A DNA stretch of 64,000 bases from Geodermatophilus siccatus (GTDB lineage Bacteria; Actinomycetota; Actinomycetes; Mycobacteriales; Geodermatophilaceae): the NCBI RefSeq assembly GCF_900103785.1, contig NZ_FNHE01000004.1, forward strand, positions 248,001-312,000, in the 5' to 3' direction. Below are positions 3,784 to 63,899 of this stretch, in pieces. Both the position numbers and the translations under genes were made by a program. A model generated the notes under the pieces. It saw only the letters and a list, made by a program, of their open reading frames with translations. It was not told where the DNA came from and did not search any database. Each line of letters begins with the position of its first letter. The stretch's first letter is position 1.

Positions 3784-5262
3784 ATGGACGCTAGCGGAGG
3801 TCTTCCCGCCGGTCGGATCGTCGGGCTCCCGGCCACCGAGCTGGCCACCCGCGTCCGGTCGGGGGAGCTGACCGCGGTCGACGTCGTCCGCGCCCACCTG
3901 GCCCACCTCGACGCGGTGGAGCCGCGCGTCGGCGCCTTCCGCGTCGTCCGCCGCGAGGCCGCCCTGGCCGAGGCGCACGCCGTCGACACCGCGCTCACCC
4001 GCTTCGCGATGCCGCTGGCCGGGGTGCCGGTCGCGGTCAAGGACAACGTCGCCGTCGCCGGTGAGGTCTGCACCGACGGCTCCGCCGCCCGCACCGGGCC
4101 GCCGGAGACCCGCGACGCCGAGGTGGTGGGACGGCTGCGCCGGGCCGGGGCGGTCGTCGTCGGTATCACCCGGATGCCGGAGCTGGGCCTCTACGGCGCC
4201 ACCGATGGGCCGGGCACGGTCACCCGCAACCCCTGGGACACGGCGCGGTCGCCGGCCGGCAGCTCCGGCGGCAGCGCGGCGGCGGTCGCCTCCGGCGCGG
4301 TCCCGCTGGCCCACGGCAACGACGGGATGGGCTCGTTGCGCCTGCCGGCCGCGGCCTGCGGGCTGGTCGCCCTCAAGCCGGGGGTGGGGGTGGTGCCCGG
4401 CGGCATCGGTGCCGACGACTGGTCCGGGATGGCGGTCAACGGAGCACTGGCGACCACGGTGGCCGACCTCACGGTGGCCCACGCGGTGCTGGCGGGGGAG
4501 GAACCGGGCCCGCTCGAGGCGCCGGGTCGGCCGCTGCGCATCGCCGTGTCGACCCGCTCCCCACTGCCGGGGACGCGCGCCGACGGCCCCGCCCGGGCGG
4601 CCGTCGACGCGGTGGTCGCGGCCCTCACCGCGGCCGGCCACACCGTCGTCCGCCGCGACCCGCCGATCACCCCGGGTGCCGCGGCCGGCGTGCTGACCCG
4701 CTGGATGGCAGCGGCTGCCGACGACGCCGCCCACCTCGGCGTCCCTCTCGCCGACCTCCAACCGCGCAGCCGCACGCACGCGCGCATCGGCCGCGCCGTC
4801 CGGGCCGCCGGCCTGGTCCGCCCGGCGACCGCCGAGCGGTTCCGCGAGCGGATGGTGGGGTTCTTCGACGGAGCGAGCCGTACGGCCTCCCCGCAGGGCC
4901 CCACCGCGAGCGTGCGAGGGGTGGGGGGCGGAGAGGTCCTTGATCTGCTCCTCACCCCGGTCGTGACCGGCCCGCCGCTGCCCGCCCGGCCCTGGCACGA
5001 GCGCTCGTTCGCGGCCAACCTGACGGCCAACGCCCGCTGGGCACCGTGGACGCCGGCCTGGAACCTGGCCGGCCTCCCGGCCCTCGTGCTGCCCGCCGGC
5101 ACCCGCCCCACGGGGCAGCCGCTGGCGGTCCAGTTCGCCGGCCCCCCGGGTGCCGAGAGGCGACTACTCTGGCTGGCCGGAGAGCTGGAGCGTCGGCTGC
5201 CCTGGCGTCGTCACGCTCCCGTCTTCGACCCCGCCGGAGCGTCGTCCCCGGCTCCCGTCTGA
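3784..5262 (+). CDS. Amidase signature family protein with an internal repeat-derived insert
   Basis: This is a 492-residue amidase-signature enzyme (GatA/FAAH-like). The Ser-cisSer-Lys triad is visible: Lys86 in VAVKDN, Ser160 in AGSSGGS and nucleophile Ser184 in DGMGSLRLP, with the 24-residue spacing between the two serines expected for the family. It would hydrolyse an amide bond in the cytoplasm; the substrate is unknown and there is no GatB/GatC context. Residues about 363-385 (from [10 protein letters not shown] to VGGGEV) look like an extra segment between FFD and LDLLLTP. The DNA there (about 4870-4940) is a reverse-strand copy of the palindromic element found between genes elsewhere in the window. 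The active site lies upstream of the insert, so activity may be kept. The start is supported by a leaderless -10 box. Confidence 0.88.
4872..4940 (-). repeat. Palindromic element copy A, inside the amidase coding sequence
   Basis: Read on the minus strand, it runs from AGGACC through CCCCACC-CCTCGCACGCTCG to GGGGCCCTG and GAGGCC, matching copy B at 44192-44252 over nearly its whole length. The arms CCCCACC and GGTGGGG and the outer CCTC/GAGG blocks can pair. It keeps the amidase frame open and encodes about 23 residues. Confidence 0.75.
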
Positions 5263-22342: not shown

Positions 22343-22350
22343 CAGCCCGG

Positions 22351-22384
22351 GAGCATCGCAGCGAGCGCCGGCGAGCGAGGAGCG
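22351..22384 (+). repeat. 34-bp dispersed repeat, copy 1
   Basis: Starts GAGCATCGCAGCGAGCGC and ends GCGAGCGAGGAGCG, just after the binding-protein gene. Its exact reverse complement is at 55183-55216. Confidence 0.7.
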
Positions 22385-22499: not shown

Positions 22500-22733
22500 A
22501 TGGTCGAGCTGGTCCTCAACGTGCTGCTGGTGCTCACCAGCGTGCTCCTCGTGGTGCTGATCCTGCTGCACCGCGGCAAGGGCGGGGGCCTGTCCTCGAT
22601 GTTCGGCGGCGCGGTCTCCTCGCAGCTGTCCGGCTCCTCGGTGGTGGAGAAGAACCTCAACCGGCTGACCGTCTTCATCGGCCTGATCTGGACGGTCTGC
22701 ATCATCGCCCTGGGCATCCTGCTCAAGGTCTGA
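22500..22733 (+). CDS. secG: Preprotein translocase subunit SecG
   Basis: A 77-residue inner-membrane protein with two transmembrane helices (about residues 2-20 and 53-73) separated by the conserved cytoplasmic loop LHRGKGGGLSSMFGG. It assists SecYE/SecA protein export. The ATG at 22500 fits the family start (MVELVLNVLLVLTSV); the longer frame from 22407 is non-conserved. Location downstream of tpiA is the classic actinobacterial position. A palindromic element follows the stop directly. Confidence 0.95.
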   Translation: MVELVLNVLLVLTSVLLVVLILLHRGKGGGLSSMFGGAVSSQLSGSSVVEKNLNRLTVFIGLIWTVCIIALGILLKV

Positions 22734-22806
22734 AGAAGGACCCCGCGTCCCCCCATCCCTCGCGCGCTCGGGACGGGACCCTGACGCGGGGCCGTTCCAG
22801 CACGTC
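22734..22806 (+). repeat. Palindromic element copy C, directly after secG
   Basis: Begins at the base after the secG TGA with AAGAAGGACCCCGCGTCC, continues through CCCTCGCGCGCTCGG and GGGACCCTG, and ends GCGGGGCC-GTTCCAGCACGTC. Arms GGACCCCGCGTC and GACGCGGGGCC pair, so it likely works as the secG terminator. The tail GGCCGTTCCAGCACGTC (22790-22806) is repeated at 22835-22851. Confidence 0.7.
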
Positions 22807-22927
22807 ACCAGGCTCGCGGCGAGCCTGTGGACGAGGCCGTTCCAGCACGTCCCCGCGCTCCCCTCGGCCTCCGGTGAACGCCGAGGTCACCGGGACCAAA
22901 GTCCTCTCCGCGGCAAGATCCAGGCCC

Positions 22928-28485: not shown

Positions 28486-28501
28486 GTCAGGTCCTCCTGG
28501 T

Positions 28502-28570
28502 GAGGTGCTGGAACGGCCACCCTTCAGGGTCCCGCGCCGAGCGTGCGAGGCGTGGGGGGAAGGGTGGTCC
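28502..28570 (-). repeat. Palindromic element copy D, between tkt and tal
   Basis: On the minus strand it begins immediately after the tkt TGA (GGACCACCCTTCC), contains CACGCCTCGCACGCTCGG and CGGGACCCTG, and ends GGGTGGCCGTTCCAGCAC. Arms CCACCCTT and AAGGGTGG pair. It closely matches copy E. Confidence 0.75.
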
Positions 28571-30796
<2,226 letters not shown>

Positions 30797-43332: not shown

Positions 43333-43805
43333 TGCAGCTGGCGTCGATGTACCAGGAGATCATCCTGGACCACTACCGCAACCCGCACGGCCGCGGGCTG
43401 CGCGAACCGTTCGAGGCCGAGGTGCACCACGTCAACCCGACGTGCGGTGACGAGGTCACCCTGCGGGTGCACCTGGACGGCGACACCCTCGCCGACGTCT
43501 CCTACGAGGGGATGGGCTGCTCGATCAGCCAGGCGTCGGTGTCGGCGATGTACGAGCTCGTCATCGGCAAGTCGGTGCCCGAGGCACTGGAGACCGGCGA
43601 GCACTTCATGACGCTGATGCAGAGCAAGGGCGACGCGGCGGTGGCCGAGAAGCTCGAGGACGAGCTGGAGGACGCCATCGCGTTCGCCGGCGTGTCCAAG
43701 TACCCGGCGCGGATCAAGTGCGCGCTGATGAGCTGGATGGCCCTCAAGGACGCGTCCGCCCGCGCGCTGGCGGCCACCCCCCCGACTGGAGGCGACAAGG
43801 CATGA
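43332..43805 (+). CDS. sufU: SufU-type sulfur acceptor
   Basis: The 157-residue SufU accepts persulfide sulfur from SufS. Zinc ligands correspond to Cys38 and Asp40 (NPTCGDEV), Cys63 (GMGCSISQAS) and Cys130 (RIKCALMSW). LDHYRNPHGRG is the usual N-terminal motif. Gram-positive and actinobacterial SUF systems use SufU in place of SufE. Overlaps sufT by 4 bases. Confidence 0.96.
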
Positions 43806-44191
43806 GCGAGACCACCGAGAACGCCACGCCGGCGACCGACGGGGCGCCCGGCGACCTGCCGGCCTACAAGTCGGCCCTGCTCGAGGACGTCGAGGAGGCC
43901 ATGCGCGACGTCGTCGATCCCGAGCTCGGCGTCAACGTCGTCGACCTCGGCCTGGTCTACGGCATCGACGTCGTCGACGACGTCGCCGTCATCGACATGA
44001 CGCTGACCTCGGCGGCCTGCCCGCTGACCGACGTCATCGAGGACCAGGCCCGGCAGGCCCTCACCGGCGGCCCCGGCCCCGGCCTGGTGGACGACGTGCG
44101 GATCAACTGGGTCTGGATGCCGCCGTGGGGCCCCGACAAGATCACCGACGACGGTCGCGAGCAGCTGCGCGCCCTCGGCTTCCGCGTCTGA
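43802..44191 (+). CDS. sufT: SufT/DUF59 metal-sulfur cluster assembly factor
   Basis: The 129-residue protein starts at ATG 43802, overlapping the sufU stop. The DUF59 (MIP18-like) core reads VVDPELGVNVVDLGLVYGID and TSAACPLTDVIEDQ with the conserved Cys73, ending WVWMPPWGPDKIT. SufT is an accessory maturation factor for Fe-S proteins. A 20-residue polar N-terminus is variable. It is the last gene of the operon and is followed directly by palindromic element copy B and a second perfect hairpin. Confidence 0.95.
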   Translation: MSETTENATPATDGAPGDLPAYKSALLEDVEEAMRDVVDPELGVNVVDLGLVYGIDVVDDVAVIDMTLTSAACPLTDVIEDQARQALTGGPGPGLVDDVRINWVWMPPWGPDKITDDGREQLRALGFRV

Positions 44192-44252
44192 GGAAGGACC
44201 CCTCCGCCCCCCACCCCTCGCACGCTCGGGGCGGGGCCCTGCGGGAGGGCCG
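44192..44252 (+). repeat. Palindromic element copy B, directly after sufT
   Basis: Begins at the base after the sufT TGA with GGAAGGACCCCTCCGC, then CCCACCCCTCGCACGCTCGG, GGGGCCCTG and GCGGGAGGGCC. The outer arms pair imperfectly. The sequence is nearly identical to the minus strand of copy A within the amidase gene. Confidence 0.75.
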
Positions 44253-44264
44253 CCTCTGAGGCCG

Positions 44265-44299
44265 CGACGGCCCGCACCCCTCCGGGGTGCGGGCCGTCG
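44265..44299. terminator. Perfect 16-bp hairpin between convergent sufT and a membrane-protein gene
   Basis: CGACGGCCCGCACCCC (44265-44280) pairs perfectly with GGGGTGCGGGCCGTCG (44284-44299) around a TCC loop. It can terminate transcription from both sides. Confidence 0.8.
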
Positions 44300-53230: not shown

Positions 53231-53695
53231 GTGACGTCCGCGCACCCGAACGACGCCCAGATCCGCGGTCTCTACGCCCAGTTCCTCGACGGTTGGAACC
53301 GACGCAGCGGCGCCGCGGTCGCAGCCGCCTTCGCCGACGACGGGGACATCATCGGGTACGACGGCACCCACCACCACGGGCGTCTGGCCATCGCGGCCGA
53401 CTTCCGGCAGATCTTCGGGAGCCATCCGACGGCCGCCTACGTCGCGGTGATCCGCTCCGTGCGACCGGTGGCGCCGGGCGTGGCGATGCTGCTGGCCCAC
53501 GCCGGGATGATCCCGCCCGGGGACAACGACATCGACCCGCGCTACCACACGGTCCACACGGTGGTCGCGGTCGACGAGGGCGCCGGCCGCTGGCGGATCT
53601 CCCTGCTCCAGGCCACCCCCGCGGCCTGGCAGCAGCACCCGGGGGGCCGCGAGGCGCTGACCCAGGAGCTGCGGGGGCTGCTCGCAGCCCAGTGA
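53231..53695 (+). CDS. SgcJ/EcaC (NTF2-like, DUF4440) family protein
   Basis: The 154-residue protein has the NTF2-like cone fold pattern: an N-terminal helix (QIRGLYAQFLDGWNRRSGAA), AFADDGDIIGYDGTHHHGR, and strands YVAVIRSVRP and HTVVAVDEGAGRWRI. SgcJ/EcaC/SnoaL-like members include small enzymes and binding proteins; no catalytic role is clear. GTG 53231 has an AGGAGG site. It is 43 bases after the ABC exporter and probably co-transcribed. Confidence 0.82.
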   Translation: MTSAHPNDAQIRGLYAQFLDGWNRRSGAAVAAAFADDGDIIGYDGTHHHGRLAIAADFRQIFGSHPTAAYVAVIRSVRPVAPGVAMLLAHAGMIPPGDNDIDPRYHTVHTVVAVDEGAGRWRISLLQATPAAWQQHPGGREALTQELRGLLAAQ

Positions 53696-53741
53696 CCTGC
53701 CGATTCATCATCCCGGTACAGCCACTGTAGGGACTGCCCGA

Positions 53742-53800
53742 GGCATGGCCCTCCTGCAGGGTCCCGCCGCGAGCTGGCGAGTGGTGGAGGAGGGTCCTCT
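53742..53800 (-). repeat. Palindromic element copy F
   Basis: On the minus strand it runs from GAGGACCCTCCTCC through CACTCGCCAGCTCGCGG and CGGGACCCTG to CAGGAGGGCC. Arms GACCCTCCTCC and AGGAGGGCC pair. It lies 47 bases past the NTF2-like stop, pointing toward that gene. Confidence 0.65.
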
Positions 53801-54162
53801 CACAGCGGTCTCCGGTTGGGTTGACGGGTCGGGGTGAGCGGGTGGGTGGGCCGGTGGCCCCCGATCGGGGTGATACGCCCCCCGGTGCCGGGTCGGGCCG
53901 GACGACGCCTTCTGCGTCCCGGGGCGCGTCGGCCGGACACCCTCCCGTGGCGGCTCCACCCCTGCTTACACAGGGAAGCAGGGGTGGAGGTTCCGCACAG
54001 GTGCTGCACCCGTGCGGGCTCGTCGGCGGTTGCTGCCGTGCTCGATCCGGGGGCTCTCGGCGGTGTCTCCTCCGCACGACGCGTGCCCGCTCCGTCCGGA
54101 CTCCCGGGTGACACCGACCCCGCCAACCCACCTGAGAATCGCTGTCAGTGCAGGACCTGCTG
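53801..54162. other. Non-coding region between convergent genes
   Basis: Open frames here lack the GC3 bias of real genes. It contains a G-run cluster (53826-53850: GGG, GGGG, GGG, GGG, GGG with loops 2, 5, 1, 1) able to form a G-quadruplex. It also holds a perfect 14-bp hairpin (53954-53967 with 53976-53989) and, at its right end, an 18-bp tandem duplication (54141-54176). Confidence 0.5.
53954..53989. terminator. Perfect 14-bp hairpin
   Basis: CTCCACCCCTGCTT pairs exactly with AAGCAGGGGTGGAG across an 8-base loop (ACACAGGG). It may terminate the minus-strand SMR/chelatase transcript. Confidence 0.5.
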
Positions 54163-54176
54163 TCAGTGGAGGACCT
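54141..54176. repeat. 18-bp tandem duplication at the end of the SMR gene
   Basis: GCTGTCAGTGCAGGACCT (54141-54158) is followed at once by GCTGTCAGTGGAGGACCT (54159-54176), one mismatch. The second unit contains the end of the SMR reading frame, including its stop at 54163-54165. Confidence 0.8.
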
Positions 54177-54420
54177 TGAGCCCCACGACGCAGCCGACGA
54201 TCCCGGCGAGCAGCAGCAGCCGCACCAGGGACGCCGGCTCCTCGCCGGACACCATGGCGATCACGACGGTCAGCACCGCGCCGATGCCGACCCACACCGC
54301 GTACGCCGTCCCGACGGGCAGCTCGCGCATCGCGTAGGCCAGCCCCAGCATGCTCAGGAGCAGGGCGACGGCGAACACCACCGACCGCTCGTCCGGGGGC
54401 CCGTGGGGGCCCACCCCCAT
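54163..54420 (-). pseudogene. SMR-family multidrug transporter lacking the first transmembrane helix
   Basis: The frame gives at most 85 residues from ATG 54420, against the usual 104-110. Helices 2-4 are well kept (VVFAVALLLSMLGLAYAMRE, LPVGTAYAVWVGIGAVLTVV, LLLLAGIVGCVVGLKVLH), but helix 1, with the membrane Glu essential for proton-coupled export, is absent. The chelatase gene ends only 24 bases upstream, so there is no room for it. A deletion fused the remnant to the upstream gene edge; a GGGCCCACCCCCATGGGCCC palindrome marks the junction. It is probably non-functional as a transporter, unless it pairs with a full-length partner. Confidence 0.65.
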
Positions 54421-55182: not shown

Positions 55183-55216
55183 CGCTCCTCGCTCGCCGGC
55201 GCTCGCTGCGATGCTC
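55183..55216 (-). repeat. 34-bp dispersed repeat, copy 2
   Basis: Exact reverse complement of 22351-22384. It fills half of the 70-base gap between the chelatase-like gene and the SDR gene. Confidence 0.7.
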
Positions 55217-55230
55217 ACGCCCACGTCGGC

Positions 55231-62387: not shown

Positions 62388-63731
62388 GTGGGCAGGACGG
62401 ACGAGCGGGAGAGCCATCCGAGGCGCTCCGGGTGGCTGGCGCGCGCAGCCGGGACGGCGGTCACCGCCCTGGTCCTGGCCGGCCTGGTGCCGGGGACGGC
62501 CGTGGCCGCCCCCGGGGACGACGAGGTCGCCGCCGCGCAGACCGGGCGCGACGCCGCGGCCGCCCGCGTCGGCGCGATCAGCGCGCAGCTCGCGCAGGCC
62601 CAGGAGCGGGTGGACGCCGCCCGCCGGGGCGCGCAGATCGCGCTGCAGGAGTACGAGGTCCGGCAGGCCGCGCAGGAGGAGGCGCGCGTCGCGGCGGACG
62701 CCGCCGCCGCTGCTGCCGAGCGGGCTGCTGCCGAACTGGGGCGCGGCCGCGACCAGGTGGTCGCCTTCGCGCGGTCGAGCTACATGCAGGGCAGCACCAC
62801 CCCGGGGACGGCCGCGCTGGTCACCGCCGAGGGTCCGGCCCAGCTGGTGGAGCGGGCCGCGCTGCTCGAGGCCGCGGGCGGCCACCGGGTCGACGTCGTC
62901 GCCGAGCTGACCGTCCTGGAGCAGCAGGCCGCCGCGGCGGACGTGGCGGCGCAGACCGCGGTGCGGACGGCCGACGAGGCCGAGGACGCCGCGGCCGGGG
63001 CCCTGGCCAGCGCCCAGGAGCAGGAGGTCTCGGCGCGCGCCCAGGCCGCCGAGCTCGCCGACCGGCGCGAGGTGCTGGAGGCCGAGCTGGCCGAGGCGCA
63101 GGAGGTCCTCTCCGGCACCCGGGGTGCGGCTGCCGCGGCAGCTGCTGCCGAGGCCGCGACCGCCGCGGCGCAGGCGCGCCCGCCGGCGCCGAGCACGCCG
63201 TCGGTCTCCTCGTCGGCGGGGTCCCCGGAGCGGAGCGCGTCGTCCTCCGGCTCGTCCTCGTCCTCCCGCGGTGGCTCGCCGACCGGCACGGACACCACGG
63301 CCGGCGATCCGGCCGGGTCGGTGGTGCAGCGGGCCATCGCGGCGGCGAAGAGCCAGCGGGGGCTGCCCTACAGCTGGGGCGGCGGCAACGCCAACGGCCC
63401 GACGTGGGGCATCCCGCCGGACACCGACGTGTTCGGGTTCGACTGCTCGGGCCTGACCGAGTACGCCTACGCGCAGGCCGGCGTGCGGATCGGCGGCACG
63501 AGCCGCGAGCAGTACTGGCGCTTCCGCGACCGGACGGTGGCCGCCGACGACCTGCAGCCCGGCGACCTGGTGTTCTGGGGCGAGACCGCCGACCACACGT
63601 CGATCTACCACGTGGCGCTCTACATCGGTGGCGGCCAGGTCGTCCAGGCGCCGCAGAGCGGGGACGTCGTGCGCATCTCGGACATGTGGTTCGGCCGCGA
63701 CTACTACGGCGCCGTCCGGCCGACCGCCTGA
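62388..63731 (+). CDS. Secreted NlpC/P60 peptidoglycan hydrolase (RipA-like)
   Basis: The 447-residue protein has a signal peptide (Arg-rich start, hydrophobic core, cleavage after AVA at residue 40), then an Ala/Glu/Gln-rich coiled coil (about 45-250), a Ser/Pro/Thr linker (about 265-310) and a C-terminal NlpC/P60 domain. Catalytic Cys353 lies in FDCSGLTEYAY and His408 in YHVALYIGGG; the third polar residue is probably Gln423 in QAPQSG. It cleaves peptide stems in the cell wall, probably at division. Coiled-coil plus NlpC/P60 is the layout of RipA-type proteins. Element copy E follows its stop. Confidence 0.92.
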   Translation: MGRTDERESHPRRSGWLARAAGTAVTALVLAGLVPGTAVAAPGDDEVAAAQTGRDAAAARVGAISAQLAQAQERVDAARRGAQIALQEYEVRQAAQEEARVAADAAAAAAERAAAELGRGRDQVVAFARSSYMQGSTTPGTAALVTAEGPAQLVERAALLEAAGGHRVDVVAELTVLEQQAAAADVAAQTAVRTADEAEDAAAGALASAQEQEVSARAQAAELADRREVLEAELAEAQEVLSGTRGAAAAAAAAEAATAAAQARPPAPSTPSVSSSAGSPERSASSSGSSSSSRGGSPTGTDTTAGDPAGSVVQRAIAAAKSQRGLPYSWGGGNANGPTWGIPPDTDVFGFDCSGLTEYAYAQAGVRIGGTSREQYWRFRDRTVAADDLQPGDLVFWGETADHTSIYHVALYIGGGQVVQAPQSGDVVRISDMWFGRDYYGAVRPTA

Positions 63732-63803
63732 CGGAGAGCCAGCCTTCCCCCACGCCTCGCGAGCTCGGCGCGGGACCCTGGAGGACGGCCGTTCCAGCAC
63801 GTC
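63732..63803 (+). repeat. Palindromic element copy E, directly after the NlpC/P60 gene
   Basis: Begins at the base after the TGA, with CCAGCCTTCC, then CACGCCTCGCGAGCTCGG, CGGGACCCTG and GGCCGTTCCAGCACGTC. It is close to copy D and shares its tail with copies C and D. Confidence 0.75.
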
Positions 63804-63837
63804 GCCAGGCTCGCGGCGGCCGCCTGCAGGGACCGAG

Positions 63838-63899
63838 GGGACCCGGGACGGGGTCAGGAGATGGGGCGTCGGGCAGCCACGGGGGGAGCTGCCCGACGC
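63838..63899. terminator. Repeat fragment plus 12-bp perfect hairpin near window end
   Basis: GGGACCCGGGACGGGGTC (63838-63855) matches 17018-17035. It is followed by GCGTCGGGCAGC (63866-63877) pairing exactly with GCTGCCCGACGC (63888-63899). No gene is resolved from 63732 to 64000; the hairpin may end a gene on either side. Confidence 0.5.

Follow-up and report, generated by a model that had tools for sequence, protein, structure and literature searches.

Our results show that an amidase gene of Geodermatophilus siccatus carries, in frame, a copy of a short palindromic repeat, very probably a mobile and non-autonomous one, that is found mainly behind stop codons and occasionally inside genes. 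Within the window (the whole stretch of 64,000 nucleotides that was analyzed), the gene occupies positions 3784-5262 of the plus strand and encodes an amidase-signature enzyme of 492 amino acids, as recognized from a single Pfam Amidase domain (PF01425, E 1.3e-76) and from its similarity in fold to 6-aminohexanoate cyclic dimer hydrolase (3a2q, E 4.1e-34), the best match in a comparison with solved structures. The repeat copy, a type 1 element of 57 nt that starts with AAGGACC, lies at 4885-4941 on the minus strand, antisense to the amidase, and the open reading frame runs through it uninterrupted. An earlier note on this DNA had claimed that the minus strand here is nearly identical to an element behind a gene it labeled sufT and that the frame stays open, and both claims held. 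Specifically, positions 4883-4941 (minus strand) share 54 of 59 bases with positions 44194-44252 (E 1.2e-19), against a null in which the same query finds at best 17 nt in the reversed window (E 0.35), which rules out chance similarity. A general repeat search of the window also returns the two places as an inverted pair (92%).

Alignment with homologs that lack the element maps the gap to residues 362-386, encoded at 4867-4941 (plus strand). These 25 residues replace three (e.g., SDV) in the empty orthologs, for a net gain of 66 nt or 22 residues; the earlier note, which had proposed about 23 extra residues at 363-385, was right about the place and off by up to two residues at its limits. In the AlphaFold model, which has a mean pLDDT of 89, the insert is preceded by a helix (347-361) and followed by a strand (388-392), and residues 366-382 score under 50, so that it is predicted to form a disordered loop within a confident fold. 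The catalytic residues Lys86, Ser160, and Ser184 lie upstream of it, as had been noted, and are invariant in a 36-row amidase alignment. The insert is presumably translated in the cell and may be nearly neutral for the amidase. Could it instead be a lineage-specific expansion of an amidase loop, with a merely fortuitous likeness to a repeat? High GC content raises chance similarity in general, and small, unrelated length changes do occur here in three homologs (L059, L066, and L089). This explanation is nevertheless refuted, and has practically no probability left, given the null search, the like inserts in three other genes (below), and the score of the amidase copy (76.5 bits, for a match at 4866-4945) under R1, a covariance model from 33 copies of the same genome that excludes the amidase copy, although these 33 were originally found through their likeness to it.

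The repeat is spread throughout the genome (a 5.2 Mb assembly), where blastn at E ≤ 10 finds 41 places (40 with E ≤ 1.5e-5) and where there are at least 151 R1 matches, with 150 of 14,499 first-look candidates scored. At least 202 R1 matches at E ≤ 0.01 lie in the window and in 90 further stretches that were picked for the copies they contain (721,816 bases), and the window, which is an unbiased sample, holds six at E < 1e-6. Besides the amidase copy, these include copy B at 44190-44269 (plus strand, 73.0 bits), right after the stop codon of the putative sufT gene (43802-44191); a copy at 22732-22811 (plus strand, 84.9 bits), right after a TGA at 22731-22733; and a copy at 28497-28576 (minus strand, 84.9 bits), immediately behind the TGA that ends gene 28571-30796 (minus strand). 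A further copy at 63730-63808 (plus strand, 63.2 bits) lies behind the stop codon of gene 62388-63731, and a weaker one at 53729-53804 (minus strand, 49.0 bits, E 5.6e-8) lies between the convergent genes 53231-53695 (plus) and 54163-54420 (minus). Among 57 Geodermatophilaceae genomes, 47 have an R1 match, many of them with about 80 or more copies, and 10 have none at E ≤ 0.001. In a sample of 295 genomes from elsewhere in the class, for which 15 candidates per genome were scored, a single genome gave one weak match (E 6.6e-5). With that exception, the repeat has so far been observed in Geodermatophilaceae only.

The element measures about 57 nt (19 codons), starts with (R)RAGGACC, has a purine-rich 5' flank (RRRA), and comes in two or more subtypes; its loop is conserved and close to CTCGCANGCTCG in sequence. 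An alignment of 33 copies supports a two-part hairpin with an outer and an inner stem: 83.2% of the cells are paired, compared with 76.4% in shuffled controls, and 35 cells have changed on both sides, compared with 11.5 in shuffles; the structure was assigned by hand and its pairs were then counted. RNAalifold, run on a MAFFT alignment, recovered the inner stem only, because the lengths of the arms vary. Folding energies for the four strands of two copies were not outstanding relative to shuffles (z -1.48 to 0.10), and an Rfam search of the 64,000-base window gave no match at the gathering score. A tail, GTTCCAGCACGTCACCA, follows some copies (22794-22860 and 63787-63846 in the window) and is present, at up to four mismatches, in 41 of the 202; it also recurs alone and is perhaps a longer form of the element or a second repeat. 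The window additionally holds a 37-nt inverted pair, at 22348-22384 and 55183-55219 (97% complementary, 32.8 kb apart), that appears unrelated and may represent another dispersed repeat family.

The nearest relatives of the amidase are found in Geodermatophilus, Blastococcus, Modestobacter, and Klenkia. We aligned 65 of 74 homologous loci (L031-L095, with L096-L104 left out) with the window protein, and of these, 58 are empty, some with a few unrelated additional residues. Five hold a full in-frame insert, namely those of G. chilensis (L031), G. poikilotrophus (L032), G. ruber (L037), Blastococcus sp. TF02-09 (L056), and Geodermatophilus sp. TF02-6 (L091), and two hold eroded pieces (L033 and L035); the frame is preserved in all seven. 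Applied to 65 amidase loci (L031-L093, L096, and L097), R1 returned the same five full copies and nothing else, all on the minus strand of the amidase. In a tree of 62 of the 66 rows, from which the insert columns were removed and L064, L075, L082, and L085 (the last of which is partial) were left out by choice, filled and empty rows are intermingled within Geodermatophilus, and this mixture requires either several insertions or several losses.

The Blastococcus homolog, which lies far from the other filled rows on this tree, carries DNA that is related to the element (E 3e-7), rather than the same residues encoded by unrelated DNA. Relative to its near sister L046, which is empty, it has gained a net 57 nt, or 19 codons. 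The flanks of its insert match this sister at 84 of 90 bases upstream and at 90 of 90 downstream, compared with 59 and 84 of 90, respectively, for the filled L091; in two windows across alignment columns 451-630, it matches L091 at 82 of 90 bases each and L046 at 79 and 80. Because the flanks are of the empty-sister type, the Blastococcus insert reflects either an independent insertion or an exchange over a very short stretch. In the G. poikilotrophus amidase, a second element, of a different subtype, lies inside the first, again in frame.

In total, nine of the 202 copies lie inside predicted open reading frames. Four of these, all antisense, are flanked by coding signal on either side and have orthologs without the element: besides the amidase copy, they lie in the genes L136 (PH domain), L189 (pentapeptide), and L117 (GNAT). 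For the PH-domain, pentapeptide, and GNAT genes, for which 26, 25, and 26 genomes, respectively, have a match, we aligned 14 loci each. Of these 14, five are filled for the PH-domain gene, with additional copies in three, and two for the pentapeptide gene, with L252 looking eroded. In the GNAT gene (L117:1187-2050, minus strand; L263-L267), the protein ends at its own stop codon in nine loci; in the other five, in-frame elements, nested and numbering one to three, fuse it to a second protein, with three nested copies in genome G358. Nesting recurs in the PH-domain gene, the GNAT gene, and the G. poikilotrophus amidase. By our own count, the nested GNAT and PH-domain copies begin at the same offset within the first copy, in its loop region, and the third copy in G358 sits inside another copy at another offset. 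The other five of the nine copies, three sense and two antisense, were not counted as insertions: three form C-terminal read-through extensions with no coding signal beyond (L145:1501-1580 and L168:1501-1580, sense; L122:15875-15952, antisense), and two are N-terminal, where the start is doubtful (L112, antisense; L108, sense).

The in-frame copies examined also share one codon register. In all 26 of the antisense matches examined across the four genes, in a search that covered the antisense strand only, the first G of GGACC pairs with position 1 of a codon of the gene. These 26 matches represent four or five independent first insertions (one each for GNAT, PH, and pentapeptide, and one or two for the amidase, counted by genus), and the rough chance of their sharing one register among six is (1/6)^3 to (1/6)^4. 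Such a register may reflect either selection on the peptide or a preferred target that, in genes of high GC content, coincides with one codon position.

Most copies in this genome lie outside of genes, and their placement there is strongly biased. With genes called by a purpose-made codon-usage gene finder (which called the amidase and uvrA genes of the window as expected), 178 of the 202 copies are intergenic, 15 extend across a gene end, and 9 fall within a predicted open reading frame. Among the 190 copies that have two neighboring genes and are not inside one, 127 start within 12 nt of a stop codon on the same strand, compared with 38.4 expected for random place and strand (sd 4.3, maximum 54, 2000 runs) and 48.5 for random place with the strand kept (maximum 65). 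In co-directional gaps, 103 of 123 copies are sense and 20 antisense, and divergent gaps hold only 7 of the 190. Further, in 80 of 128 stop-adjacent copies, GGNCC follows the stop codon at a distance of exactly 4 nt. Taken with the covariation of the stems, this placement would fit a functional 3' RNA element (a terminator, a barrier to RNases, or a brake on ribosome release) that is maintained by selection and spread by gene conversion, with the intragenic copies being accidental. We consider that explanation unlikely, since a run of TTTT within 25 nt, as expected behind the hairpin of an intrinsic terminator, follows none of the 128 copies, since nested and in-frame copies occur within coding sequence, and since no match at E ≤ 0.001 was obtained in 10 of the 57 family genomes.

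The stop codons themselves do not readily account for the anchoring. TGA, TAG, and TAA precede 110, 15, and 3 of the 128 stop-adjacent copies, a usage similar to that of the background (536, 73, and 7), which prompted the idea of a termination-coupled insertion at any stop codon. That idea was weakened by the finding that TGA makes up 111 of the 113 stops with GGNCC at exactly +4, compared with 321 of the 372 stops whose following 19 nt are free of GGNCC (Fisher p 1e-4). A plain TGA target was not borne out either: among copies away from stops, TGA occupies the corresponding position ahead of GGNCC in 3 of 62 (2 of 35 in one group and 1 of 27 in another), a rarity that would also be in line with the 3' RNA explanation. 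The preference for TGA at +4 stops does not carry over to copies elsewhere, which counts against the reading as a mobile repeat. The +4 spike is clear in the stretches of this genome that were chosen around copies (110 of 591 genes), and in the unbiased window, where GGNCC stands at +4 in 3 of 52 cases and at +5 in 6 of 52, there is no such spike. Among relatives, it is visible in the stretches of G041 (8 of 64) and G030 (5 of 67), doubtful in those of G039 (3 of 62), and not seen in those of G034, G011, G051, and G037. These observations establish the spike for this genome and suggest it for only some of its relatives. A group of 27 copies has no upstream gene on the same strand (26 have one on the opposite strand and one has none), and several of these are preceded by AnnnTA (e.g., L109:1501, L116:1501, L190:1501, and L131:1501), which by eye resembles the -10 box (TAnnnT) of a gene on the opposite strand, as if the element adjoined promoters too.

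Comparisons between relatives revealed both gain and loss of copies at orthologous gene ends. On the syntenic contig of G. chilensis (G051), homology with the window, at 97.6%, extends through the whole stop codon that ends at 22733; it returns 142 nt farther on, where G. chilensis has 7 nt and no copy. The copy at 28497 is likewise absent from the G. chilensis ortholog, and at one further orthologous stop codon, the two genomes hold different subtypes. In two more blocks, with 14 copies compared, six are missing behind an orthologous stop codon in G. chilensis, two in a cluster are missing, one is eroded (L106:8085), one is of a different subtype (L105:5092), one is shared (L105:1501), and three are not comparable. 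The differing subtypes at orthologous stop codons could be due to exchange between resident copies. In five further genomes, orthologous gene ends are patchily occupied; that such ends so often lack a copy is again difficult to reconcile with a selected 3' RNA element. Behind the ortholog of the window gene 22500-22733, a copy is present in this genome (G000), G030, and G011, is missing in G041, and is doubled in the syntenic block of G034, where two copies stand in tandem (L208:3810-3889 and 3904-3982). As judged by eye, about 6-14 nt have been replaced at the site in several empty/filled pairs, and no target-site duplication was seen. With respect to the features of MITEs, the outer arms of the element are complementary, and by eye, bases have been replaced in the empty/filled pairs, with no duplication seen.

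We favor a mobile repeat, and these patterns can be hypothesized to arise as follows. An enzyme supplied in trans, probably other than a Y1 or RAYT enzyme of this genome, would copy the palindrome. Copies would then persist where they are least harmful, that is, behind stop codons, in older copies, and in flexible loops of proteins. Those that enter a coding sequence at a flexible place, and add a multiple of three bases, could survive as a disordered loop or linker, and a resident copy could, in turn, offer a harmless landing site for further in-frame copies. More tentatively, the repeat might act as a DNA-level generator of linkers in free-living Actinobacteria, in which a 19-codon element enters genes in one strand and one register, with its own hairpin loop as the preferred next entry point, and so builds translated, nested, disordered linkers and gene fusions.

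The element is reminiscent of the palindromic elements of Rickettsia and Wolbachia, which are repeats located between and inside genes that are inserted in frame and kept open (PMC10969869, PMC2229807). Like the Rickettsia elements, the repeat described here is palindromic and lies in frame in genes that have empty orthologs, a likeness of description. The Rickettsia elements, for which 105-146 nt is quoted, are longer than the present repeat (about 57 nt) and reside in hosts of a different phylum. The present repeat also differs in that its copies, in its own genome, lie mostly behind stop codons, are nested, and share one codon register in four genes. The resemblance, which the earlier note had proposed for the amidase copy, is strengthened by the empty orthologs, the retained frame, the predicted disordered loop, and the three further genes, and by this analogy, we read the repeat as one that may work like the Rickettsia palindromic elements.

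A second comparison is with the GTAG- and CGTC-tagged REPs, described in one study as sequences of 20-40 bp with tagged ends, mainly from gamma and alpha Proteobacteria, of which the GTAG REPs are tied to RAYTs (PMC3733652). There, they are placed mostly near the 3' ends of open reading frames, in convergent and co-directional gaps, with some inside open reading frames and some twice in one (PMC3733652). The present repeat is similar, as it consists of high-copy palindromes near the 3' ends of open reading frames, some within them, with repeated insertion in a single frame; it differs in its length of about 57 nt, in the lack of GTAG or CGTC adjoining the stem in 33 copies inspected by eye, and in the lack of a Y1 transposase in the genome. 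Mobilization of the repeat as an ordinary REP, by a REP-associated tyrosine transposase (RAYT), would fit the size class, the palindromy, the place behind genes, and the in-frame intragenic copies, all of the kind known for REPs (PMC3733652), yet it is highly improbable here: Y1_Tnp (PF01797) has no match in this genome, whereas the same search was positive in 5 of 14 control genomes, and the 33 aligned copies, by eye, have no tag adjoining the stem, the CGTC-containing tail lying farther out in 41 of 202. Closer in this respect are the untagged REP-like sequences of M. tuberculosis, D. radiodurans, and others, which are mentioned in the same study (PMC3733652). They share the lack of conserved terminal tags, and one of their hosts is an actinobacterium.

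Position near stop codons has parallels as well. The MIRU of Mycobacterium are actinobacterial interspersed repeats that lie at stop codons and have a TGA-containing target, and they are not known to be palindromic and are often in tandem, whereas the repeat here is a hairpin and also occurs inside genes. In E. coli, REPs close to stop codons stall ribosomes when the hairpin lies within about 15 nt of the stop codon; the present hairpin is similarly placed, a likeness of position.

Our searches of the literature on repeats in Geodermatophilaceae and Actinobacteria, which covered titles and the beginnings of abstracts, with most subscription papers outside their reach, found no report of this element. 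The main text of PMC3733652 makes no mention of actinobacter-, Geodermatophil-, or Blastococcus names, and PMC9686282 uses "palindromic" for CRISPR only. REP-like inserts in frame are already known outside Rickettsia, according to PMC3733652 and PMC2229807. Because REPs, too, lie near the ends of open reading frames and sometimes inside them, the principle of in-frame palindromes is already known, and the novelty lies in the family, its lineage, and the pattern. Specifically, the novel combination is that of an untagged actinobacterial family, with no Y1 transposase in this genome, nested in-frame copies, and gene fusion. How small repeats reach such places becomes a concrete question here, given how tightly they cluster behind stop codons and that no transposase is known for them. 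Translated palindromes in Rickettsia and in some REP-rich genomes have been argued to be a route by which selfish DNA gives rise to new protein sequence, and the Geodermatophilaceae repeat, which has at least 202 copies in this genome, sites that are cleanly empty in relatives, several nestings in the same genes, and one gene fusion, makes this route testable in non-pathogenic bacteria from culture collections.
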